DNA from: a virus
Direction: 5' to 3' (one strand)
IMG/VR virus record: IMGVR_UViG_3300048025_000146
Coordinates: 1-20,029 of that record
DNA: 20,029 nt
Shown here: piece by piece, positions 771-3,107 of the stretch
How positions within the stretch are numbered: position 1 is the stretch's first letter
Layout of the letters: each line of letters begins with the position of its first letter
Notes under the pieces: model-generated
The model's database searches: none
What the model was told of the DNA's origin: nothing
Seen by the model: only the letters and a program-made list of their open reading frames with translations
Made by a program: the position numbers and the translations under genes

Positions 771-1020
771 GTAGACGCTTGTGACACCGTGTAGACACTT
801 TTTTTTTGTAGGTGGCTGTTATAAGTCTTAAGTATTATCAACGACTTACGACTTTGTAGACGGAAAGTACACTTTTTTCTAGGTGTTAAACAAAACTGTT
901 GCAAGACCTCCAAAAAAGTGTCATAAGTGTCTACACTTCCCTAAGTCGTTGATAATACTATAATATAACGACAGACACCTACCCTGTTTTTGGTGTCTAC
1001 AAGGTGTCATAAGTGTCTAC
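771..1020. repeat. Giant imperfect palindrome (about 250 bp, axis near 895)
   Basis: Base-by-base comparison of the two halves gives paired blocks on one axis: 771-798 with 993-1020 (25 of 28 pairs), 808-819 with 971-982 (11 of 12), 831-848 with 942-959 (18 of 18), 855-861 with 929-935 (7 of 7), 869-878 with 912-921 (10 of 10) and 881-884 with 906-909 (4 of 4). A small AACA/TGTT loop stem lies at the centre. Only a one-base shift separates the outermost block from the inner axis. No gene is visible inside. As DNA it could extrude a cruciform; as RNA it would fold into one long hairpin. It could be a replication origin, a packaging or resolution site, an operator, or a decayed palindromic insertion. 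It ends about 50 bp before the terminase operon. Confidence 0.85.
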
Positions 1021-1026: not shown

Positions 1027-1055
1027 TTGACATTTGAACCAAAATCGTTCATAAA
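1027..1055 (+). promoter_or_regulatory. Putative sigma70-type promoter for the terminase operon
   Basis: A perfect TTGACA -35 (1027-1032) is followed after 17 nt by CATAAA (1050-1055), which matches four of six -10 positions. It overlaps the edge of the giant palindrome and lies just upstream of the first packaging gene. Transcription would begin around 1062, leaving almost no leader if translation starts at 1068. The -10 is weak, so this is tentative. Confidence 0.35.
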
Positions 1056-1067
1056 CCATTGTATCGA

Positions 1068-1568
1068 ATGAAAAAAAGACCTTTACAGGCACAGCGTAAG
1101 ATCGATGCGAAGAGATCCAGATGCCATAGAAAACGAATGAAAGCAGAAGATGACATGAAACAAGCTCAAAAGGAGCTAAAGAAAGTGGAGAAGACATTAG
1201 ACACCAAGAAGCAATTCATGGATATGATGTCCAAAGCACCGACGCCGAGTGAGCAACGCAAAGCATTACTAGCTATGTTTGCCGAGCGAGGGATCAATCC
1301 GATCGAGGAGCTTATGAACTACACTCAGGATGACTCAGTGGCTAAAAAGGACAAGATAGCCATCTGGAAGGAGCTTGCCAGCTTCACTCAGCCAAAACTT
1401 AAGAGTGTTGATGTGCAGCAGAATATCACAGGAGAAATGAAGATATTATCAGTAGATTTCTCAAAAGTTGCTAAATCCGACCTTGCCAAAGAGGTACAAG
1501 CAGACATAGTAGAAGAAGAAGGGTATGACGAATTTTTAAGCGAAGAAGAAAAACATGGCGATAACTGA
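1068..1568 (+). CDS. Putative terminase small subunit
   Basis: The product is 166 aa from the ATG at 1068; an in-frame TTG at 1059 is possible but less likely. The first ~50 residues are strongly basic and coiled-coil-like (KKRPLQAQRK, then QAQKELKKVEK). A central part reads PTPSEQRKALLAMFAERGINPIEELM (59-83) and then IAIWKELASFTQPKLKSVDV (98-116). This 'age/Ile-Pro-hEEL ... WKELA.f..PKLKsV' pattern is seen in small-terminase-like proteins encoded just before podovirus large terminases. The C-terminus is acidic. The expected role is to recognise concatemeric DNA and recruit the large subunit. Position two genes before TerL supports this; no helix-turn-helix can be confirmed by eye. Its end overlaps the next gene by 14 nt. 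Confidence 0.6.
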   Translation: MKKRPLQAQRKIDAKRSRCHRKRMKAEDDMKQAQKELKKVEKTLDTKKQFMDMMSKAPTPSEQRKALLAMFAERGINPIEELMNYTQDDSVAKKDKIAIWKELASFTQPKLKSVDVQQNITGEMKILSVDFSKVAKSDLAKEVQADIVEEEGYDEFLSEEEKHGDN

Positions 1569-1797
1569 GGATCATGATGAGTTATTTGATAGAGTTAGAG
1601 GTAATCTAGGCGAGCACTTCACTAACTACATGTTCGTTGTGATGGATGACGATGGCGATTTATACTATGACTACAGTAATTTCAGGGTTGGCAGAATGCT
1701 GATCAAAGAGACCCACGAAGACATGGAAGGTAAGACTGACATGATTGATGTGTTGTGGGAAGCTGAACAAGAAGACGACATACAAGAAGAAGAATGA
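1555..1797 (+). CDS. Small acidic protein of unknown function
   Basis: This 80-aa protein is not recognised. It is strongly acidic, with a DDDGDLYYDY stretch (30-40) and a Glu/Asp-rich tail (EQEDDIQEEE). No signal peptide or membrane segment is seen. It starts 14 nt inside the putative small terminase gene, and its TGA overlaps the large terminase ATG (ATGA), so all three are probably translationally coupled. The location suggests an accessory packaging role or a DNA-mimic-like protein, but that is inference from charge and position only. Confidence 0.7.
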   Translation: MAITEDHDELFDRVRGNLGEHFTNYMFVVMDDDGDLYYDYSNFRVGRMLIKETHEDMEGKTDMIDVLWEAEQEDDIQEEE

Positions 1798-3107
1798 ACG
1801 TACAAGTACCTGCCCAGGGATGGGAGCCAAGGGATTACCAGCTCCCTTTAATCAAATACATGACGCAGAACAAACGCAGCTTGCGAGCTGTTGTTGCTTG
1901 GCATCGTCGTGCTGGTAAGGATTTGACCTGTGTTAATATCGTAGCAATGAAGGCATTGCAGCGTGTGGGTACATATTGGTACGTCCTCCCCTATGGTAAT
2001 CAGGCTAGACGTATTGTTTGGAATGGTATGACAGGGGAAGGTAAAAAATTCATTGACTACTTTCCAAAGGAGTTAGTTGAGAAGAAGAGTGAGCAGGAGA
2101 TGCGTATTCATCTAAAGAACGGTAGCGTCATCCAACTTATGGGTTCTGACGACCCAGATAAGATGGTGGGAGCAAACCCAGTAGGATGTGTATTCTCTGA
2201 GTACAGTATTTCAGATCCCAGTGCGTGGCAGTTGATCAACCCCATCTTGGCAGAAAATGGTGGGTGGGCGTTGTTCAATGGAACACCTCGTGGTGAGAAT
2301 CATTTTTACAAGATGTTGTTAAAAGCCCAAGCCGACGGAGCATGGTATAGCAGTCATCTATCTGTAAAAGACACAAAGGCGATAGCACCAGACGAGTTAC
2401 GTAAAGCTAGAGATGAGTTAAACAATGAAGCACGTTTCCAGTCGGAGTACATGTGTTCGTTCAAGACTCCAGTGGAGGGATCATACTATGGTACATATAT
2501 GACCAAAGCGTATAAGGACAAACGTATTTTAGAAGAAGTACACCCAGAGCCGATGTTGCCAGTACACACGGCGTGGGATCTTGGTATGGATGACGCAACT
2601 AGTATATGGTTCTTTCAAATATTTAAATCGGAGATTCGGTTGGTGCATTATTACGAGAATAGTGGGGAGGGTCTTCCCCATTATGCTCGTGAGTTAAACA
2701 AGTGGGCAGCTATGAAAGATGTTAGTTATGGAAAGCATTACGCCCCACACGATATTAAAGTACGTGAGTTAGGCACAGGTAAGAGTCGATTAGAGATCGC
2801 ACGTAGCATGGGATTAAAATTTACCACAGTAAGGAAGTTACCAGTTATCGATGGTATTGACGCCGTGAGAGCCCTGCTACCAAGGTGCTGGTTTAACAAG
2901 ACGCAGTGTGCTAGAGGTATCGAGGCGTTAAAGGGGTACCACAAGGAGTGGGATTCAAGTAAGCAAGTATTTAGAAAGCAAGCTGTACACGACTCTAATT
3001 CTCATGGAGCTGACGCATTTCGTACAATGGCGGTAGGTTTAAAGCAGCCGTCACTAGACAACAAGAAGAAATCAACTACGTATGAAGTCCAGAACATTAC
3101 CTGGTGA
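1794..3107 (+). CDS. terL: Terminase large subunit (packaging ATPase and nuclease)
   Basis: The 437-aa product is the motor that cuts concatemeric DNA and pumps it into the procapsid through the portal. The ATPase half shows a Walker A-like HRRAGKD (37-43), a Walker B segment GCVFSEY (131-137) with SE in place of the usual DE, and the coupling motif NGTPRG (162-167). The nuclease half has WDLGMDDATS (261-270), an APHD segment (317-320) and HDSNSHGADAFR (399-410), the expected metal-binding acidic clusters of the RNase H-like fold. Length is close to the shorter podovirus terminases. The start overlaps the preceding stop as ATGA, and the end overlaps the next gene by 26 nt. Serine at the first Walker B position occurs in related phage terminases and need not mean loss of function. 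Confidence 0.95.
   Translation: MNVQVPAQGWEPRDYQLPLIKYMTQNKRSLRAVVAWHRRAGKDLTCVNIVAMKALQRVGTYWYVLPYGNQARRIVWNGMTGEGKKFIDYFPKELVEKKSEQEMRIHLKNGSVIQLMGSDDPDKMVGANPVGCVFSEYSISDPSAWQLINPILAENGGWALFNGTPRGENHFYKMLLKAQADGAWYSSHLSVKDTKAIAPDELRKARDELNNEARFQSEYMCSFKTPVEGSYYGTYMTKAYKDKRILEEVHPEPMLPVHTAWDLGMDDATSIWFFQIFKSEIRLVHYYENSGEGLPHYARELNKWAAMKDVSYGKHYAPHDIKVRELGTGKSRLEIARSMGLKFTTVRKLPVIDGIDAVRALLPRCWFNKTQCARGIEALKGYHKEWDSSKQVFRKQAVHDSNSHGADAFRTMAVGLKQPSLDNKKKSTTYEVQNITW

Follow-up and report, generated by a model that had tools for sequence, protein, structure and literature searches.

A conserved mirror-symmetric array of phage-specific sites upstream of the terminase genes in a group of marine podoviruses

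The origins of SaPI (PICI) elements carry element-specific iterons on both sides of an A/T-rich stretch. The concatemer hairpin of phage T7 is an inverted repeat near packaging functions, and a hairpin end was reportedly described for T7 concatemers by Chung et al. in 1990 (cited in PMC4925675). In iteron origins, the repeated initiator sites are clustered, are specific to the phage or element and, in lambdoid phages, lie beside an A/T-rich region (PMC7466680, PMC7145576). The stoperators of Cluster A mycobacteriophages are many copies of one site, which differs between phages in step with the regulator (PMC6550527). The locus described here, a palindrome at nt 770–1021 (axis 895) of a 20,029-bp virus record (the window), shares features with several of these systems.

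The palindrome is real and not a product of chance, as the original prediction had held. When all axes of the window were scanned without gaps, axis 895.0 gave the highest complementarity (50% of 124 opposed positions), against a background mean of 25.6% (sd 4.0%) and 43.5% for the runner-up. The main arms are 808–887/903–982 (71%) and 767–798/993–1024 (88%). The minimum free energy of nt 760–1030 folded as RNA is −118.1 kcal/mol, far below that of shuffled sequences (−57.1 ± 4.2; z = −14.5), and none of 200 shuffles gave a comparable fold; the DNA value is −67.9 versus −24.5 ± 3.4 (z = −12.7). The predicted fold is a single unbranched hairpin of 87 pairs running from 770 to 1021. A nucleotide search of phage records returned no match. 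The complementary blocks, described originally as separate, proved not to be independent: a single 8-bp motif accounts for most of them, and the arms pair because this motif recurs in direct and inverted orientation.

Relatives were found through the terminase large subunit (TerL; nt 1794–3107, plus strand; PHROG 2, E = 3e-29), and conservation was counted over those loci from related marine podoviruses in which 1 kb or more precedes TerL (n = 71). The same palindrome was sought upstream of the terminase and is present at the same place in all of these loci: the left core (see below) is found within 2 mismatches in 71/71, at −1045 to −729 from TerL, and the right core lies 105–108 bp beyond it. 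Most of the 71 loci show a single hairpin fold, the outgroup L078 being an exception. A pattern search of the viral collection returned 35 contigs, many of them overlapping with these relatives, and the three that were re-examined (L186, L194 and L208) all carry the same array. In eight more distant phages, no convincing palindrome was seen upstream of TerL. A weaker imperfect hairpin of ~130 nt lies ~0.9–1.05 kb before TerL in the more distant phage MW202510.1 (L115/L112), with a z of about −4.3 against simple shuffles. The same array, together with a TerL of 88% identity, occurs on a contig of a metagenome-assembled genome labelled Sneathiella, which is a weak hint as to the host.

No clear genes are present in the 1.6–1.9 kb that hold the array and separate leftward early/replication genes from a rightward late operon. 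The early genes specify a family A DNA polymerase, an AEP-type primase, UvrD-like and SNF2-like helicases and a Pam3 gp34-like protein. On the late side, TerL is preceded by a small gene (nt 1059–1568, plus strand), called the terminase small subunit (TerS) by position; its product has no PHROG or Pfam match above cut-off, and is conserved across motif classes. The window also encodes a head-tail adaptor and a major head protein. In one relative, an early cassette (L173:10132–13607, minus strand) resembles a ubiquitin-like pathway, with a ThiF/E1-like protein (PRTRC_ThiF, below its cut-off), a PRTRC_A-like protein, a small protein like a ubiquitin-type modifier and a weak E2-like match; similar genes occur in other relatives.

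Relatives include circular genomes of about 40.5–42.3 kb. That the locus is a telomere or resolution site in a linear, plasmid-like genome, or else a palindromic insertion that has decayed, would account for the palindromic shape only, and is extremely improbable. Assemblies of complete relatives are circular and run through the locus, with arbitrary breaks elsewhere, whereas at a protelomerase telomere the genome ends at the palindrome; the arms keep consistent asymmetries; and the array occupies one fixed place in 71/71 loci, unlike an insertion. The terminus and the degenerate insertion offered by the original prediction are both disfavoured by these data.

Left of the array, the alignment shows a conserved box at nt 709–740, GGTCCCTACYNGC...CAATTTT (also written GGTCCCTAC...CAATTTT). 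Further left, nt 155–640 of the window is a GC-rich non-coding stretch with many GCGAGCGAAGCGAGC-like repeats, which probably contributes both to breaks in assembly and to the abrupt divergence of L064 and L066. By eye, there are many occurrences of GTGATAGT within and near early genes (about 2600–4500 in L099, about 64–520 in the window). About 11 contig left ends, by hand count, fall 1000–1250 bp before TerL, above the neighbouring bins, and the simplest reason for this clustering is assembly trouble at repeats.

The anatomy of the locus was derived from an alignment of 40 arrays and extraction of the site copies. Each arm carries six copies (three outer, one inverted and two inner) of an 8-bp site, NNNNACAC, and a 13-bp core, and the order from left to right is A B C, inverted D, core, E F, apex, F' E', core', D', C' B' A'. 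In the window, the plus-strand sites of the left arm are A (GTAGACGC, nt 771–778, also evident in the alignment), B (TGTGACAC, 780–787, 9 bp from A), C (GTAGACAC, 791–798), E (GTAGACGG, 856–863) and F (AAGTACAC, 865–872, 9 bp from E and followed by a T tract). Site D (812–819, minus strand) is degenerate in the window (GTGGCTGT) and a clear GTGTGAC in phages of the TCACAC class. The left core, TATCAACGACTTA (836–848, plus strand), is nearly invariant. At the apex (873–917), T/A tracts surround an unconserved centre that the pair counts show to be mostly unpaired. The right arm is read on the minus strand and comprises F' (reverse complement TATGACAC, 918–925), E' (reverse complement GTAGACAC, 927–934), the right core TAAGTCGTTGATA (942–954), C' (reverse complement GTAGACAC, 993–1000), B' (reverse complement TATGACAC, 1004–1011) and A' (reverse complement GTAGACAC, 1013–1020), with D' (ACAGACAC, 971–978, plus strand) opposite in direction to the other sites of this arm. 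The right core is less conserved than the left, both in the alignment and in the core search across loci, and is TAAGTCCTTGATA in many relatives. The A–C spacing is exactly 20 bp in 40/40 aligned phages, the C–E and E'–C' spacings are each 65–66 bp, and the starts of F and F' are 52–55 bp apart. The core spacing (~106 bp) is close to ten helical turns, which may reflect helical phase. In the alignment, the apex also has A/T tracts, and the arms contain TATAAT-like stretches.

While the scaffold is constant, the sequence of the site changes from phage to phage, and does so in concert. The site consensus is GTAGACAC in the window and, in other phages, GCTCACAC, ATCACAC, GTTCACAC, GTTGACAC, ACAGACAC, CCAGACAC or TGTGACAC, with GGTACAC, GGTCACAC, ATAGACAC, CCTGACAC and CTAGACAC as further variants and AGTACAC in the outgroup. 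With site D left out of the statistics, two copies from the same phage differ at 1.41 of 8 positions and the same copy between phages at 2.68, compared with 2.80 (sd 0.02) in a label-shuffled control that ignores phage kinship. The difference is seen at site positions 3 and 4 (mismatch 0.11 and 0.09 within a phage versus 0.48 and 0.58 between phages), and positions 5–8 are equally constant within and between phages. For pairs such as L041/L042 and L014/L017, all ten copies compared differ in the site. Most copies fall within the array (8/8 of GCTCACA in G005, 6/7 of ATCACAC in G001), with further copies outside it in G002 and G032–G035. Like iterons, the locus thus repeats a short phage-specific site several times in a single non-coding place, and its sites are concentrated in the array, not dispersed through the genome like stoperators. 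If one protein reads all copies, change across the separate copies is to be expected; copying between repeats could contribute.

The repeated sites also explain what looks like covariation of a stem. Both sides of the paired blocks do vary, with 375 cells in the pair counts changed on both sides versus 183 expected by shuffle, but this apparent covariation sits in the repeated sites. Motif positions pair in 91% of cells and other positions in 64% (some site edges being counted as spacer), the apex and alignment columns 53–57 are mostly unpaired, and a C–C mismatch in the core is kept in 34/40 sequences. Selection for pairing should make mirror copies more alike than other same-type copies. The mismatch is 0.25 for mirror versus 0.30 for non-mirror copies at positions 1–2, and 0.09 versus 0.09 at positions 3–4, so there is no clear mirror effect. 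The outgroup L078 has the same sites and cores, yet folds weakly (z = −2.4), and outside the repeated sites no maintenance of the stem by compensatory change, as in a T7-like packaging hairpin, was found. On these results we rejected a selected hairpin, and a formerly perfect one is not supported. Judged from the aligned sequences, the locus is very probably a binding-site array, and we read the palindrome as a by-product of the inverted placement of one site. The case would also be a warning that inverted repetition of a protein site can give rise to a hairpin that is predicted to be strong and has covarying arms.

The same data bear on two other explanations. Foldback DNA (a cruciform or hairpin) serving concatemer processing or packaging, as in the T7 hairpin end, would be in keeping with the adjoining terminase genes, with the very stable fold in the window and with the T7 precedent, known by title; the poor pairing of spacers and apex, the conserved mismatches, the lack of a clear mirror effect and the weak folding of an outgroup with the same sites make it unlikely, as does the conservation of TerS while the sites change. 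The latter also led us to reject TerS as the reader of the sites, and with it the packaging signal proposed originally, in so far as TerS would read it. A long structured RNA from the region, such as a processing hairpin or decoy, would agree with the RNA fold (z = −14.5), but is very unlikely: the conserved promoter-like element is to the right of the array and points away from it, Rfam contains no family matching the palindrome region, the outgroup RNA folds poorly, and pairing outside the repeated sites is not kept.

The promoter-like element adjoins the array. It consists of TTGACA (nt 1027–1032, plus strand), which is −35-like, and, 17 bp after it, a weak −10-like CATAAA (1050–1055, plus strand), both recognised in the alignment. 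TTGAC is invariant in 18/18 aligned loci not chosen for it, and ATA is conserved 17–18 bp after TTGACA in 47 sequences selected for TTGAC; a scan with the sigma-70 consensus gave no promoter at threshold. An operator or enhancer array, through which a phage activator or repressor of changing specificity would switch the late promoter (TTGACA-N17-CATA) and possibly also early transcription, without any origin, is a possibility to be taken seriously, if not one we expect. The array ends a few bp before the conserved −35-like element and separates early from late genes, and in mycobacteriophages the stoperator motifs and their repressor diverge in parallel (PMC6550527). However, strict mirror symmetry and two cores exceed the needs of one promoter, no counterpart promoter was seen left of the array, and no repressor or activator gene was recognised except for a 100-aa protein with a sigma-70 region 4 domain in contig G002 (L088:1453–1752).

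Base composition gives a hint about replication. In G032–G035, the GC skew is positive over both the minus-strand early genes and the plus-strand late genes, while the AT skew changes sign. A GC skew of one sign on both gene strands points to unidirectional replication, with which it fits wherever the origin may lie; the uniform skew argues against bidirectional initiation at the array, and a bidirectional origin there was rejected.

Our preferred explanation, held tentatively and at somewhat less than even confidence, is an iteron-type origin with control of the late promoter, built as a mirror-symmetric nucleoprotein array. The two rigid half-arrays, each of six 8-bp sites (NNNNACAC) and one core (TATCAACGACTTA or its mirror), would face each other across the A/T-tract apex as a dyad-symmetric nucleoprotein site. 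We infer that the copies are read by a phage-encoded, sequence-specific protein with a history of repeated changes in specificity, and that its cooperative binding compacts the region into a folded complex, much as happens when initiators bind iterons. The array would then serve as a replication origin and also set the adjoining late promoter, although the TTGACA beside it fits a purely transcriptional role equally well. An origin was among the functions listed in the original prediction; the hairpin reading given with them is unsupported.

Searches for the reader protein recognised no initiator, Rep or HUH protein in the genomes examined. The best candidate partner is p286 (~280–315 aa), the product of an early gene close to the array, with an average identity of 36% between motif classes and 69% within them; neighbouring proteins also diverge strongly. 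After correction for TerL distance, the correlation with the motif is highest for its neighbour p128 (0.67) and is 0.40 for p286 itself, so these sequence statistics are suggestive only: they single out no protein, and linkage and shared ancestry may contribute. The C-terminal domain of p286 is predicted to form three helices (mean pLDDT 80), its model has no match among solved or viral structures, and it is absent in L164/L165. On these grounds, and with p128 tracking the motif better, p286 was not accepted as an established reader. Contig G002 (L066/L139) was left out of the co-variation test as possibly chimeric. From about position 2578 of L066, L066/L139 are about 97–100% identical to L064, and before it they are unrelated, the early part departing abruptly from L064 ~330 bp left of the array. 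G002 may be a chimera or a real recombinant between array and early genes; if real, it would be evidence against p286.

That the locus is a new kind of phage origin or control element, a rigid 12-site mirror array that diversifies as its copies switch recognition sequence in concert, driven by a fast-evolving binder, to give a lineage-private code, is somewhat doubtful. If true, the private code would perhaps keep co-infecting relatives from using each other's machinery, and would show a route to lineage-private replication. For this group of marine phages, represented here by metagenomic sequences alone, the array would point to the origin or the master switch. Its recognition codes, at least ten on a constant scaffold, are a natural experiment in the joint change of a multi-copy array and its reader.

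Among described systems, the T7 concatemer hairpin differs from the array, the stem of which is itself not conserved. With the Cluster A stoperators the array shares multiple copies and phage specificity; stoperators lie scattered across the genome, most of them in a single orientation, whereas the array sites are compact and mirror-symmetric. SaPI (PICI) origins are similar in their described layout, and no SaPI-type Rep was recognised here. Lambda ori (bound by the O protein) and the RepA_N-type origin of the PLE satellite have clustered repeated sites, as does the marine phage array, which differs from iteron origins in its 12 8-bp sites, two mirror half-arrays and two cores, and in its intergenic position beside a late promoter. 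Without claiming membership in a named family, we regard the array as most likely a variant of the iteron/operator kind.
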